Source of the DNA: a virus
Reading direction: 5' to 3' (one strand)
Length of the DNA stretch: 41,146 bases
Virus record (IMG/VR): IMGVR_UViG_3300044633_000362
Location: 1 to 41,146 of that record
Shown here: positions 4,117 through 30,486 of the stretch, one piece after another
Layout of the letters: every line of letters starts with the position of its first letter
How positions within the stretch are numbered: position 1 is the stretch's first letter
The notes under the pieces: generated by a model
The model's database searches: none
Told to the model about the DNA's origin: nothing
The model's input: the letters and a program-made list of their open reading frames with translations, nothing else
Translations under genes and position numbers: made by a program

Positions 4117-4905
4117 ATGGCATTGGAAAGCGCCACCTACATTAGTGATCTGGTGTCTACCAATCCGACATCTTCAGATAACCTTTCGCAGGGCGATGAT
4201 CACCTTCGTCTACTTAAGTCCACCATCAAGGCTACGTTTCCGAATGTAGCTGGGGCGGTCACCCCGACCCATACGGAACTCAACTATGTCGATGGCGTGA
4301 CCTCCGCCATTCAGACCCAGCTTGACGCTAAGGCTGTCTTAGCTAGTGCAAACACGTTTACTGGCAATCAGACGATCACTGGCAATCAGACGATCACTGG
4401 CAATCAGACGATCACCGGCAATCTTACCGTCTCAGGAGCGGTCACTGGGGTTTTCCCCACTGGCACCCGCATGCTCTTCCAGCAGACTTCGGCGCCTACT
4501 GGTTGGACAAAGGACGCTACTCACAATGATAAGGCCCTGCGTGTCGTTAGTGGAACGGTAAGTTCTGGCGGTACGGTCGCCTTCAGCACTGCCTTCGCCA
4601 ATCGCACGGTCTCCGGCAACGTCGATAACACGACGGCAGGCGGAACTGTTGGAAGCACTGTGCTCGATGTGACGCAGATTCCGTCGCATACGCACACATT
4701 CACATACGGCACAAATGACGTTAATGGCGGTGGCGGGTCATATCCTATGTATAACGCAGGCTCGAGTGTTAAGACGACTGCGGCTACTGGTGGTGGAGGC
4801 GGTCACACCCACTCCTTCACCGGAACGGCCCACAATCACTCCTTCTCGACCACGCTCGACATGGCCGTCCAGTACGTCGACCTCATCATCGCGTCGAAGG
4901 ACTGA
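4117..4905 (+). CDS. Tail fibre / collar-domain protein
   Basis: This 262-residue protein starts at ATG 4117 behind AAGGAA. Residues 1-85 look like a virion-attachment region, with an HTELNYVDGVTSAIQTQLDAK segment common in phage fibres. Residues ~86-108 are GNQTIT repeats likely forming a fibrous shaft. From about residue 112 (TGTRMLFQQTSAPTGWTKD) the protein resembles tail-collar domains, with three His-x-His sites (IPSHTHTF, GHTHSF, AHNHSF) of the kind that bind metal along trimeric fibres, and Gly-rich loops. It probably takes part in host-surface binding. It is the first gene of the late block and lies 2 bases before the next gene. Confidence 0.75.
   Translation: MALESATYISDLVSTNPTSSDNLSQGDDHLRLLKSTIKATFPNVAGAVTPTHTELNYVDGVTSAIQTQLDAKAVLASANTFTGNQTITGNQTITGNQTITGNLTVSGAVTGVFPTGTRMLFQQTSAPTGWTKDATHNDKALRVVSGTVSSGGTVAFSTAFANRTVSGNVDNTTAGGTVGSTVLDVTQIPSHTHTFTYGTNDVNGGGGSYPMYNAGSSVKTTAATGGGGGHTHSFTGTAHNHSFSTTLDMAVQYVDLIIASKD
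4360..4431 (+). repeat. 18-bp tandem repeat inside fibre gene
   Basis: ACTGGCAATCAGACGATC is repeated exactly three times (4360-4377, 4378-4395, 4396-4413), followed by a degenerate fourth copy (4414-4431). Each unit encodes the hexapeptide TGNQTI. Exact identity at DNA level suggests recent expansion and possible length variation of the shaft. Confidence 0.85.
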
Positions 4906-26230: not shown

Positions 26231-26277
26231 GATTGCTGGAGATGGAGTATGGACCAACAGCAACAATGGTGAGTCAA

Positions 26278-26637
26278 ATGGAAGACGCAGACAGACAGGC
26301 CCTACAACGCCTGTACTATGCACTGGGAGAGATCAAAGGCATCGCAGCCCACATGCCCGTGGGACAAGTCATGGCGTTGCTTCTGGTATCCCTTCACGAG
26401 AACAAGCCGATGAAGGAGCTTGCGTCTCTCGCGGACACCAACATCTCGACCATCAGTCGCCAATTGATTGACTTAGGTGCGCGTAATCGTCGCATGGAGC
26501 CGGGGTACGGCCTGATCGACCAGCGCCAGAACCCGATGAACCTCCGAGAGAACCAATACACCTTGACGCTCAAAGGGACCCATCTGATCAAAGGCATCCT
26601 CAAGCAACTCACGCGCAAGACCGGGAGCGTGGCATGA
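26278..26637 (+). CDS. Winged-helix regulator, MarR-like, paired with integrase
   Basis: This 119-residue protein starts at ATG 26278, chosen because GGTGAG lies 5 bases ahead; other in-frame starts (26233 TTG, 26242 and 26266 ATG) have poorer sites. Residues ~44-67 form a clear helix-turn-helix (KPMKELASLADTNISTISRQ) and ~85-105 look like the wing (NQYTLTLKGTHLIKG), as in MarR-type proteins. It overlaps the integrase gene by four bases, so the two are co-expressed. It could repress early promoters, control integration, or act as excisionase-like factor. No CI-type repressor was found elsewhere, making it the best candidate lysogeny regulator. Confidence 0.65.
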   Translation: MEDADRQALQRLYYALGEIKGIAAHMPVGQVMALLLVSLHENKPMKELASLADTNISTISRQLIDLGARNRRMEPGYGLIDQRQNPMNLRENQYTLTLKGTHLIKGILKQLTRKTGSVA

Positions 26638-27818
26638 GCATCTATCCCCTGAAGCGCAAAGGCAAGCACACGGGCAAATGGCGTGTCGAAATCCAAGTGA
26701 GCGGCAGGCGGGCGAGGGGTGTCTTTGCGTCCCTTGAGGAAGCCCGCGCTGCTGAAGCCAACTGGACCAAGGGCCTGCCTGAGGTCGCTATTGTCAGGGA
26801 GAGCCGCAAGGGTCCCCCTAAGACCCTCAAGGACATCTACAGCGAGACCGCAGGTGCCCTGTGGTACGGCAAGGTCTACCGCCAGATCGCAGAGCAGCGC
26901 CTGTGGCGGGTCATGGAGATCATTGGGGTCAACACCCCGGCTGAAGCTGTGACCACTACGGACCTCGATAAGGTCGTGGAGACCCTACGGGGCGAACGCC
27001 TGAGTGGTTCGACCATCAACAAGTATCTATCCGCCTTCCACAAGCTCATGGAGTGGGCGCGGACCCGCAAGTTCATCACGACCCTTCCGCACTTCCCCAG
27101 TGAGGACGAGGACAATGGTCGCATCCGGTGGCTGACGCCCCATGAGGAGCGTGTGCTTCTGAATTTGGTCCCTGAGGACATCAAGCGGATGATCCGGGTG
27201 GCGATCCGCACCGGAATGCGGCGTGGGGAGTTCTACACGCTCCAGAAGCAAGATGTTGTCTATCGCTGGGTCCGGTTGTGGGAGACCAAGACCGACGAGC
27301 CGCGTTCGGTCCCCATCGGTGACCAGACTGAGGCCGACCTTGTGTGGCTCCTTGACCACGGAATGCCGTCTCGGGACAAGCTGAGGTACTGGTGGGACAT
27401 TGCCCGCGACAAGATGAAGCTCAGTAAAGACCCGTGGTTTACTTTCCACGTTACTCGCCACACCTGTGCAACTCGCTTGGTCGAGGCCAATGTACATCTG
27501 AGGACTATCCAGAAGTGGCTTGGGCACAAGAATATCGAGACAACATTGAGGTACGCCCAGCTTTCGGAAGGTGTTCTTGCGGCGGCTTTAACCGCACTGG
27601 AAAATTATCCGGGTGGGGTTATGGACATCTCCCCACGCGGGGGGTACATGGAAAAAACCGCTGATACGGGGCTGTCTTTGGACAACCCTAAGTCGGTAGA
27701 AAGCAACCCTAGATACGGCCAGATCGATGGAAACGTGCGCGGGCGTGGTGAAATTGGCAGACACGCAGGATTTAGGTTCCTGTGGGGCGACGAGCAATCT
27801 CAAGAAGATACCGAGTGA
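26634..27818 (+). CDS. int: Tyrosine recombinase (integrase)
   Basis: This 394-residue protein starts at ATG 26634, overlapping the previous stop. It has an N-terminal arm-binding-like region (KRKGKHTGKWRVEIQVSGRRARGVF), a core-binding domain (~65-150) and a catalytic domain with R196 (TGMRRGEF), H272/R275 (HVTRHTCATRL), H298 (GHKN) and the nucleophile Y307 (TLRYAQ). It inserts and excises the genome at attP. About 85 residues follow the nucleophile, and the last ~27 are encoded within and beside the tRNA-Leu-like sequence at 27739-27790, so integration would alter the extreme C-terminus. Confidence 0.92.
   Translation: MSIYPLKRKGKHTGKWRVEIQVSGRRARGVFASLEEARAAEANWTKGLPEVAIVRESRKGPPKTLKDIYSETAGALWYGKVYRQIAEQRLWRVMEIIGVNTPAEAVTTTDLDKVVETLRGERLSGSTINKYLSAFHKLMEWARTRKFITTLPHFPSEDEDNGRIRWLTPHEERVLLNLVPEDIKRMIRVAIRTGMRRGEFYTLQKQDVVYRWVRLWETKTDEPRSVPIGDQTEADLVWLLDHGMPSRDKLRYWWDIARDKMKLSKDPWFTFHVTRHTCATRLVEANVHLRTIQKWLGHKNIETTLRYAQLSEGVLAAALTALENYPGGVMDISPRGGYMEKTADTGLSLDNPKSVESNPRYGQIDGNVRGRGEIGRHAGFRFLWGDEQSQEDTE
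27739..27790 (+). other. attP: attP core: 5' half of a tRNA-Leu(TAG) gene
   Basis: Starting at 27739 the sequence reads as the 5' part of tRNA-Leu: acceptor strand GCGGGCG (27739-27745), D-arm with AAATTGGCAGA, and a 5-bp anticodon stem CAGGA/TCCTG around the loop TTTAGGT with anticodon TAG at 27773-27775. After about 27785 it no longer follows a tRNA and no acceptor 3' half exists, so this is not a functional tRNA gene. P-SSP7, a T7-like cyanophage, is known to carry a 42-bp host tRNA-Leu match directly downstream of int. The exact core length needs a host sequence. Confidence 0.8.
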
Positions 27819-27823
27819 ACTAA

Positions 27824-27838
27824 GCCCTCTTTGGGGGC
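27824..27838 (+). other. Compact hairpin between attP and RNA polymerase gene
   Basis: GCCCTC (27824-27829) and GGGGGC (27833-27838) can form a 6-bp stem (one G-U) with a TTT loop, 6 bases after the integrase stop. There is no T tract, so intrinsic termination would be poor. In a prophage it would lie between the interrupted host tRNA gene and the phage RNA polymerase gene. Confidence 0.35.
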
Positions 27839-27937
27839 ATTCGGATACGTATAAACACTGTACAAATGCATATGGTCTGGGGGTGTCGAGTGTCCAAACA
27901 GTAAGAGCTTGAAGTTACAGTCCGATTTCGAAAAGTA

Positions 27938-27961
27938 GCCCTTTACTACAACTTAAGCAGA
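27938..27961 (+). promoter_or_regulatory. Candidate phage RNA polymerase promoter upstream of its own gene
   Basis: GCCCTTTACTACAACTTAAG matches the element at 3678 (17 of 20 positions). It lies 24 bases before the RNA polymerase ATG, so it would make expression autocatalytic and drive the replication operon up to the terminator at 40926. In T7 the polymerase gene is read by host polymerase (known); no convincing host-type promoter was seen in the 27819-27984 leader. Confidence 0.55.
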
Positions 27962-27984
27962 GACGACGGACGGAGAGAGACGAA

Positions 27985-30486
27985 ATGGCGACACTCGAAG
28001 ACCAGCTAAAGCTAGAGACCCTTAGTCTTACTGAAGGTTACAATAGGTACGTAAGGAGCGAGAGTAGACTTAAGGAAGACCAAGGATATGCAGCTACTAG
28101 CTCAGTATCTCAGGTCATCAGAGATGCTATTCCTCAGGTAGCTCTCGACATCGAAAGGTTCCTTAAGGCTGACTATAAGGGTCGTTACCCTGATGGTCAT
28201 AGCTACCTAAAGGACCTTGAGGTTACCTTAAGTGCCTATATAGGTCTTTCGTGTGTCTTCAACTCCATTGGTCGCCAAAGCACCCTTCTTCAGACCTGCA
28301 TTGACGCAGGCCGTTTTGTCGAAAACGAACTGTGGGCGAAAGCTCTCAAGTCTCACGATAAGACTTTGTACGAGCGTTTGGTCTCAAGGGTCCTCAAGAC
28401 CCACGGCAACATCGTGTATCGCAAGAAAGCGATCAGGGCGACAGCCGCCAAGGAAGGCTTCAAGTACGAGAGCCTGCCTAACGATGTCAGGGCGAAGATC
28501 GGGGAACCTCTGGTTAACGCAGTCCTTAAGGCCTGCCAAGACGTCTTTGAGTTGTACGAGGACCGCAAGGACAACTTCGTAGGTCTCACTGAAGAGGCCA
28601 GCAGTTACCTTACGGAGCTTCGGGAACTTGAGGCATGGATGCACCCTGCATTCAAGCCCATGATCATCCCCCCGAAGCCTTGGGTATCCTACGAGACAGG
28701 GTGCTACCACAGCGAGGCCCTGAGCAGGTACGTAAAGCTCGTAAGGACCCACTCCAAGGAACACAGGGCTCTCGTCTCCAAGGCTATCACGAGTGGCCTC
28801 ATGCAGCCCTGTCTCGAAAGTATTAACACGATCCAAGCGACACCTTGGGCCGTCAATCAACGGGCTCTGGAGGTCGTCCAGTGGGCGTGGGAGCAAGGGG
28901 TTACCCTCGACAGCTTCCCGCCTCGCTTTGCGCTCCCAAAGCCCCCTAGGCCCGTGGATTGGGATACACTTGAGGACAGTCGCAAGAAGGCATGGCGGAT
29001 CAAGGCGTCCAAGGTAGCCGAAAGGAACCGGGGCATCGTTGGTGAAGCTATGGTCATCAATCAGGACCTAGCGACCGCTAACGAGATGCTTCAGTACCCC
29101 GAGTTCTACCTTCCGTACTCGATGGACTTCAGGGGCAGGGTGTACGCCATCCCTCACTTCTCGATCCAAAGGTCGGATTACGTTCGGGCGCTCTTCAAGT
29201 TTGCCACAGGTGTCCCTCTGGGTCCTGACGGTCTCTACTGGCTTGCCGTCCACGTTGCTAACACTGGAGACTTCGACAAGCTATCGAAGCGCCCTTTGGA
29301 CGAGCGTGTCCGTTGGGTGACGGAGAACACCGCCATGATCGAAAAGGTCGCCAAAGACCCCTACGGCACCTTCGATATCTGGAGGAAAGCTGACGCTCCC
29401 TTTCAGTTTCTCGCCGCCGCAATGGAGTGGGAAGAAGCTATCAAAGACCCGGAGGGTTACGTCAGTCACCTTCCGATAGCTCTTGATGGTTCTAACTCCG
29501 GTCTACAACACTACTCTGCAACCATGCGCTCGATGGAGGGCGCTCTGGTGAACCTCGTGGCCTCTGAGATACCCTCAGATGTCTATCAGGTTGTGTGCGA
29601 CAAAGCAAAAGCTATCGTCGAGGCGGACGCAGCAAAAGGTGAAGAAATTGCTAAGATCGTCCTGAGAAACGAAGTGTCACGGTCAATCGTCAAGAGGAAC
29701 GTGATGACCTTCGCGTACTCAAGTGAGCAGTACGGGTTCGCCCAGCAGCAACGCGAGGACCTTATGAGGCCATTGAGCCTTGAAGTTCTCGAAGGTCGCC
29801 TTGAGGAACACCCATACGGGGCTGACCACGGCTTCGCAGCGTCTCTGTATATCGCGAAGGTCGTGTGGACGGCGGTGAACGAGGTTGTCAAGGACGCATC
29901 GCTGGGAATGAAGTTCTTCCAGAAGTGCGCCCAAGTCCTTGCCCACGAAGCTAAAGCCCTTGTGTGGTTTACGCCTATTGGTCTCCCGGTTCTTCACAAG
30001 TACGTCAACTACCAAGTGAAACAGGTGAGCCTGTGGCTCTACGACAAGCGGCTCTCCGTTGGCGATGTCAACAAGGAGGACCGTATTGAGGACGGTAAGG
30101 TCATCAAGTGGGTGAGGTCGCGTGTGCGTCTAAAGCCCACTGAAGTGATCAACAAGGACAAGCAGAAGTCGGCGGTCGCCCCGAACATCATCCATAGTCT
30201 CGATGCGGCTCATCTGATGCTAACAGTTCTTGAAGCTCACGAAGTCGGTATCAACCACTACTCGCTTATTCACGATAGTTTTGGTACTCACGCTGGGAAC
30301 ACCACACGGTTCTTCCAGATCATCCGTGAGACCTTCGTGCAGATGTACGAGGAGTATGACCCCTTGGAGGAAATCCATAGCGCCACGATCAAAGCGGCGG
30401 ACGACAAAACCAAAGTCCCCCGACCCCCAGTACGAGGTCCCCTTGATATTCGGGGGGTTATCAACAGTCTCTACGCCTTCGCGTAG
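27985..30486 (+). CDS. Single-subunit DNA-directed RNA polymerase (T7 type)
   Basis: This 833-residue protein (T7: 883) starts at ATG 27985 behind GGAGAGAG. All key motifs are visible: MDFRGRVYAIPHF, ALDGSNSGLQHYSA with the catalytic D501 (T7 D537), VKRNVMTFAYSSEQYGF with K570 and Y578 (T7 K631, Y639), NIIHSLDAAH, and LIHDSFGTH with D764 (T7 D812). It transcribes phage genes from dedicated promoters; the two matching elements at 3678 and 27938 are the candidates. It is the first gene of the replication operon, downstream of int and attP. Confidence 0.96.
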   Translation: MATLEDQLKLETLSLTEGYNRYVRSESRLKEDQGYAATSSVSQVIRDAIPQVALDIERFLKADYKGRYPDGHSYLKDLEVTLSAYIGLSCVFNSIGRQSTLLQTCIDAGRFVENELWAKALKSHDKTLYERLVSRVLKTHGNIVYRKKAIRATAAKEGFKYESLPNDVRAKIGEPLVNAVLKACQDVFELYEDRKDNFVGLTEEASSYLTELRELEAWMHPAFKPMIIPPKPWVSYETGCYHSEALSRYVKLVRTHSKEHRALVSKAITSGLMQPCLESINTIQATPWAVNQRALEVVQWAWEQGVTLDSFPPRFALPKPPRPVDWDTLEDSRKKAWRIKASKVAERNRGIVGEAMVINQDLATANEMLQYPEFYLPYSMDFRGRVYAIPHFSIQRSDYVRALFKFATGVPLGPDGLYWLAVHVANTGDFDKLSKRPLDERVRWVTENTAMIEKVAKDPYGTFDIWRKADAPFQFLAAAMEWEEAIKDPEGYVSHLPIALDGSNSGLQHYSATMRSMEGALVNLVASEIPSDVYQVVCDKAKAIVEADAAKGEEIAKIVLRNEVSRSIVKRNVMTFAYSSEQYGFAQQQREDLMRPLSLEVLEGRLEEHPYGADHGFAASLYIAKVVWTAVNEVVKDASLGMKFFQKCAQVLAHEAKALVWFTPIGLPVLHKYVNYQVKQVSLWLYDKRLSVGDVNKEDRIEDGKVIKWVRSRVRLKPTEVINKDKQKSAVAPNIIHSLDAAHLMLTVLEAHEVGINHYSLIHDSFGTHAGNTTRFFQIIRETFVQMYEEYDPLEEIHSATIKAADDKTKVPRPPVRGPLDIRGVINSLYAFA

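Follow-up and report, generated by a model that had tools for sequence, protein, structure and literature searches.

The 41,146-bp virus record IMGVR_UViG_3300044633_000362, analysed here over its full length (the window), carries a tyrosine integrase gene (int) directly upstream of a gene for a T7-type single-subunit RNA polymerase (RNAP), and the attachment site (attP) overlaps the end of int. The order regulator-int-attP-RNAP is best explained as the lysogeny module of a temperate T7-like phage (Autographiviridae with an integrase) of Alphaproteobacteria; sequence matches suggest that the host order is probably Hyphomicrobiales. It is likely, taken as a whole, that integration through this module rebuilds a host tRNA-Leu gene at attR, that a hairpin insulates the RNAP gene, and that the altered integrase tail is a by-product of the position of attP in int. 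Within this explanation, the core matches the tRNA-Leu(TAG) gene of candidate hosts, the target is single-copy, and the same junctions occur in relatives.

Lysogeny module and attachment site

The ends of the window are joined within a contig of a close relative, L002; the genome is therefore circularly closed, and int-attP-RNAP is the order of the free phage. All features of the module lie on the + strand. A small transcriptional regulator (26233-26637; phrog_9665, transcriptional regulator, E=1.8e-17; no Pfam match, to MarR or any other family, at E 0.001) stands directly 5' of int and occupies the position of the MarR genes in P-SSP7, LUZ100, HTVC200P, and RHEph01. The integrase gene (26634-27818) encodes 394 aa (PF00589, E=2.6e-20; PF02899; phrog_1); attP is located in it, the regulator being the preceding gene, and no attP lies inside a repressor gene. 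The first gene to the right of attP is that of the RNAP (27985-30486; 833 aa; PF00940, E=5e-99; PF14700), whose best phage matches are the RNAPs of BB8 and LUZ100. An Rfam scan of the region gave just one sub-threshold match, inside the RNAP gene, a consensus promoter and terminator scan found nothing at the int/RNAP junction, and ARAGORN called no complete tRNA in the whole window. In a nucleotide search among phages, the tRNA half described below was the sole match (Oenococcus and other phages).

The attP core (27739-27784) is the 5' half of a tRNA-Leu(TAG) gene through the anticodon stem-loop, on the same strand as int and present once in the window. These 46 nt are matched exactly by 28 genomic contigs, mostly of Hyphomicrobiales including Aestuariivirga, and ARAGORN calls a tRNA-Leu(TAG) at all 28. 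The match begins at the first base of the tRNA except in L017, where it begins one base into the call, which ends at the contig edge; identity continues past the core, to 48-50 nt, in 27 of the 28. An exact match of this length in so many tRNA genes excludes chance, and its taxonomic distribution points to the likely host range. The preliminary description had proposed that the core is the 5' half of a tRNA-Leu embedded in the last codons of int, and with bacterial counterparts found in 28 contigs this claim stands. It had also set the half 195 bases upstream of the RNAP gene; the placement is right, the distance being 200 nt from the end of the half. The same 46-nt half, followed by a different 3' half, is present in L006 (positions 501-669), a MAG contig labelled Nanopelagicales, in which a tRNA-Leu(TAA) begins 1 nt past the end of the tRNA-Leu(TAG).

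The tRNA-Leu(TAG) pattern is single-copy in all ten candidate-host genomes examined. The CUA codon is read only by tRNA-Leu(TAG). By these decoding rules, the single-copy gene is probably essential to the host.

Comparison with L002 delimits the site further. A 125-nt block (27660-27784) comprising the P arm and the core is identical in both phages. No other identical run in the 2 kb compared is as long (longest runs under permutation: median 63, 95% point 94, maximum 155), and identity breaks sharply at 27785, the right edge of the core. Candidate arm-type integrase sites, all kept in L002, are TTTGGACA (27677-27684), the direct repeat CAACCCTA (27683-27711, with copies at 27683-27690 and 27704-27711) and, in the putative P' arm, TGTCCAAA (27891-27898), which is preserved amid an otherwise variable stretch. 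The copies at 27677 and 27891 form an inverted pair on either side of the core. Such a build would be expected of a tyrosine-integrase attP with its left arm inside int.

Integrated forms in relatives and the fate of the tRNA gene

Profile scans of viral contigs yielded three further phages with the overlap, L004 (int 43%, RNAP 57% identical to those of the window), L121 (54% and 63%), and L122 (45% over the matched part and 46%), each of which carries a tRNA-Leu(TAG) 5' half within the int reading frame. In an integrase tree, the window and L002, L004, L121, and L122 form one side of a branch with support of 100/99. A protein scan of the genome contig collection with the integrase of the window found no relative. 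In another T7-like phage, L149, a tRNA-Leu(TAA) 5' half lies downstream of int, after approx. 4035, apparently inside a small ORF; an overlap between attP and a gene may thus have arisen there in another way.

One of these relatives appears in the integrated state. The int ORF of L122 (421 aa) runs through a complete tRNA-Leu(TAG), and the record begins precisely at the RNAP start codon and ends at the int stop codon, with the attL flank trimmed off; such a cut is typical of a provirus taken out of a host contig along gene boundaries. From this cut it follows that RNAP comes first, that int with the rebuilt tRNA comes last, and that the integrase tail is host-derived. The chromosomal prophages G119, G715, and G1093 were picked by their T7-type RNAP. 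In G119, of which 10 kb remain, the 5' half of a host tRNA-Leu(TAA) precedes RNAP by 191 nt, and the rebuilt tRNA is located past int; in G715 and G1093, a truncated host tRNA-Leu 5' half is followed by a terminator and RNAP, and int is located approx. 40 kb away at the opposite end. These elements bear out the geometry that the preliminary description had foreseen: int and RNAP stand at opposite prophage ends in L122, G119, G390, G715, and G1093; the joined sequence is a full tRNA next to int in L122 and G119; and the host promoter with a truncated tRNA points toward RNAP in G119, G715, and G1093. A change of the integrase C-terminus, likewise foreseen, is observed in L122 and predicted for the 28 host tRNA genes. 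Moreover, L150 (IMGVR_UViG_3300042691_011516) and L153 (IMGVR_UViG_2855413562_000001), records without a T7-type RNAP, encode the same 379-aa integrase (around 4120-4640) and present two states, a tRNA-Leu(CAA) 5' half versus a complete tRNA-Leu(CAA); L153 and L150 are a natural attP/attR (before/after) pair with one integrase. In L153, a second complete tRNA-Leu(CAA) occurs approx. 360 nt further on.

Neither the window phage nor L002 was found integrated in the genome contig collection, and a search for the RNAP family of the window in approx. 1250 genomes of Alphaproteobacteria and other Pseudomonadota revealed no integrated copy of either. In the family of Aestuariivirga (69 genomes), a search for T7-like RNAPs returned two prophages, neither of them close. 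Six genomes (G141, G996, G848, G685, G618, and G166) contain an RNAP and no usable int/att pair. G105 was ruled out as an example because the repeat there corresponds to the 3' half of a tRNA-Tyr; its T7-like prophage (L078-L080) lies at this tRNA-Tyr, whose 3' half it uses on the other strand, and contains a tRNA-Leu(TAA) as well. Contig 9 of G002 (L141-L143) and contig 16 of G278 (L064-L066), each a T7-like prophage, have identical stretches of 14-15 nt at their very two ends (AGACTCAAAATCTG; GCCTAACGAAGTGTT), as if the assembly had broken at att owing to a coexistence of integrated and excised forms; the G002 prophage lies at a tRNA-Leu(CAA). The tRNA-Leu gene may not be the sole target of the module, as HTVC048P (L089, 2300-2619) carries an antisense tRNA-Cys(GCA)-like 5' part between int and RNAP.

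Among the phages compared, the split tRNA gene appears to be saved in two ways. The window clade, P-SSP7, G119, and L149 carry a 5' half. A whole tRNA-Leu in the module together with a core of approx. 11-15 nt is found in G390, G715, G1093, G002, G302, L123, LUZ100, HTVC200P, HTVC119P, RHEph01, Pasto, and Limnohabitans phage YIMV22061, and each of these 12 phage tRNAs has the anticodon of its core (six TAA, four TAG, two CAA), the core being defined by a repeat at both ends in G390, G715, G1093, and G002 and inferred from the spacer in the other eight. The exact-match statistic is weak for single whole-tRNA phages (8 nt in LUZ100; RHEph01 within shuffles), and the case for replacement therefore rests on the anticodon agreement and the integrated cases. 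Because int and RNAP flank attP, any integration in the anticodon loop must leave the promoter of the host tRNA gene, together with its 5' half, on the RNAP side.

The whole-tRNA way corresponds to the known tRNA-dependent lysogeny (Guerrero-Bustamante & Hatfull 2024, PMC10865867) and has been noted for the T7-like pelagiphages uv-Fonsiphage, HTVC011P, and HTVC025P (Chen et al. 2019, PMC6811365). In the LUZ100 study, the tRNA-Leu was interpreted as having been left behind by imprecise excision (PMC10134795); the anticodon agreement favours a replacement rather than such a leftover. The presence of a half or whole tRNA-Leu beside int in many temperate T7-like phages is thus explained by a loss that must be made good, and the tRNA is part of the lysogeny module, not baggage. 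The cultured proteobacterial phages LUZ100 and RHEph01 are testable cases of tRNA-dependent lysogeny.

Hairpin, integrase tail, and rival explanations

A hairpin, GCCCTC-TTT-GGGGGC (27824-27838), directly follows the int stop codon. In the window it is weak (z=-1.1, no better than many shuffles) and has no T-run; its counterpart in L002 is strong (dG -20 kcal/mol, z=-4.7), with a poor T-run. Terminator-like T-run hairpins are located 28-51 nt past the core, before RNAP, in P-SSP7, G715, G1093, LUZ100, and RHEph01, and a terminator has been mapped after int in LUZ100 (PMC10134795). Judging from this shared position, the hairpin is most likely an int terminator in the free phage and an insulator of RNAP in the prophage, and insulation is more likely than a switch. 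The comparison thus points to this one hairpin as the barrier needed to shield the phage RNAP gene from a strong host promoter.

An element shared by almost all of the 27 host upstream regions, TGCTATAGA or a close variant of it, or TGCTATAG(A), occurs approx. 45 nt upstream of the tRNA and would face RNAP in a lysogen. Upstream of the tRNA half itself, a simple consensus scan found no promoter above background in the window, L121, L122, and L004, and a TATAAT- or GATAAT-like box is present at this position in P-SSP7 and in L150/L153. In the window clade, the rebuilt tRNA may therefore be processed from transcripts extending through int.

On integration, the acidic tail of the phage-form integrase (..GDEQSQEDTE and stop; 27785-27818) would be replaced by host-encoded sequence. 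When the int gene of the window was joined in silico to the 28 host tRNA genes, the frame stayed open through the 3' half in 27, and the predicted lysogen form has 387-445 aa where the stop falls within the stretch examined. The tail DEQSQEDTE (net charge -5) gives way to a host-derived one, for example NPWGFKSLRPHQ.. (+5 in the one case calculated), and the tail predicted for a lysogen of the window (GRGEIGRHAGFRFLWGNPWGFKSLRPHQ..) is similar to that of L122 (GRGGTGRRAGFRFQYRKMWGFESLRPHQ..). The AlphaFold model, which has a shallow alignment and a mean of 62, shows an integrase ordered to about residue 323 and then a C-terminal extension of approx. 70 residues that overlaps attP; pLDDT is under 50 for residues 302-394 and roughly 20-40 for 324-394. 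In L121, a different frame of the tRNA half is used (..AGVVKLADTQDLGS..); the peptide that the half encodes is therefore not conserved, and tail sequence varies across the clade. A conserved, functional int tail was dropped as unproven once this frame was seen.

In the explanation preferred here, attP would use the anticodon stem-loop of the single-copy tRNA-Leu(TAG) gene, whose 5' half the phage carries in the int frame. Integration would cut the host gene, leaving its promoter and 5' half at attL before the phage RNAP, and at attR the 5' half brought by the phage would join the 3' half of the host gene to restore the tRNA, collinear with int. The hairpin after int would end int transcripts in the free phage and, in the prophage, would block host tRNA transcription from reaching RNAP; transcripts running through int would provide the rebuilt tRNA. 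The altered integrase tail would be mainly a by-product of the int/attP overlap rather than a tuned switch.

The preliminary description had regarded the arrangement as a built-in switch. In its full form, integration would alter the integrase through its C-terminus, as in Mx8, and would put RNAP under the host tRNA promoter, thereby setting the choice between lysis and lysogeny. The Mx8 precedent (PMC6070905), the shift of the tail from -5 to about +5, and a frame that stays open in nearly all hosts speak for it; however, the changed part begins approx. 75 residues beyond the catalytic Tyr307 in a region predicted to be disordered, the frame differs in L121, relatives with the same attP position have no overlap, and a hairpin or terminator, in the window at the terminator position, lies between core and RNAP. 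The switch is thus unsupported, and we regard it as improbable. An Mx8-like change of activity through the new tail is possible, and the predicted disorder makes altered activity or specificity doubtful. A more modest alternative, that int lost its stop codon by neutral drift and ran into attP with nothing beyond ordinary integration at a tRNA site, fits the unconserved tail, and the invariance of the 125-nt block at the DNA level between the window and L002 is as expected of attP itself. Yet the overlap is retained in five phages of one clade at 42-94% integrase identity, in each spanning the entire core, a length that drift by itself would not easily preserve; drift alone is a reasonable possibility but would not be our expectation.

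Phages do acquire tRNA pieces, and the half could in principle be a mere relic that an imprecise excision left in the phage, the origin suggested for the LUZ100 tRNA-Leu (PMC10134795). A relic is very improbable here, given that the half ends at the anticodon arm every time, at an edge that is the crossover point seen in prophages, that whole phage tRNAs match the core anticodon in every case, and that integration at such sites has been shown for P-SSP7 and S-TIP37 (PMC8776855). Beyond the preferred explanation, it may tentatively be suggested, as something we consider rather unlikely, that integration amounts to a promoter exchange: the only tRNA-Leu(TAG) of the host would lose its promoter to the RNAP end and become the 3' part of the int transcript, survival of the lysogen would need transcription of regulator and int, and a single hairpin would hold the host promoter off RNAP, its failure starting lytic growth.

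Comparison with known systems

Among the closest known systems are the cyanophages P-SSP7 and S-TIP37, T7-like phages with the order regulator-int-attP-RNAP and an attP formed by the first half of a host tRNA-Leu, for which integration by int and attP has been shown experimentally (Shitrit et al. 2021, PMC8776855). The P-SSP7 core, from tRNA-Leu(TAA), lies approx. 100 nt past the int stop codon, with a promoter-like TTGTTA-16-TATAAT before it and a T-tailed terminator behind it, whereas the window core lies inside int and has no such promoter. The preliminary description was correct in calling the P-SSP7 layout comparable, although the core is outside int in P-SSP7. In tRNA-dependent lysogeny and in pelagiphages, as here, an essential tRNA is split on integration and the phage compensates (PMC10865867, PMC6811365); pelagiphages use the same tRNA-Leu(TAG), adjoining trigger factor (PMC6811365). 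Those phages combine a core of approx. 10 bp with a whole phage tRNA, whereas the window shares 46-50 nt with its hosts, lacks a whole tRNA of the same isotype by ARAGORN, and would have the gene rebuilt.

We know of no T7-type RNAP reported behind the attP of the Myxococcus phage Mx8, which, to our knowledge, is not T7-like. Mx8 resembles the window in having attP inside int, integration making a new int 3' end (PMC6070905), as is observed in L122 and predicted for the window. The effect of recombination on the integrase has been tested in Mx8 (PMC6070905). LUZ100 shares a MarR-int operon followed by a terminator and then RNAP (PMC10134795) and differs in its short core and in a whole tRNA-Leu(TAA) located antisense upstream of int. 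The integration-dependent immunity of mycobacteriophage BPs also involves a gene restructured by attP/attB recombination (PMC4557955), the repressor in BPs and the integrase in the window.

The suggestion that the consequences of such an arrangement are little described therefore holds only in part, since tRNA-dependent lysogeny, Mx8, and uv-Fonsiphage already cover some of them. With the P-SSP7-type attP, the attP-in-int of Mx8, and tRNA-dependent lysogeny as precedents, the window presents a P-SSP7-type attP moved into int. What is new is the combination, in a supported clade, of an overlap between int, attP, and the tRNA half with a rebuilt tRNA that has no recognisable promoter and is probably fed by int transcription.
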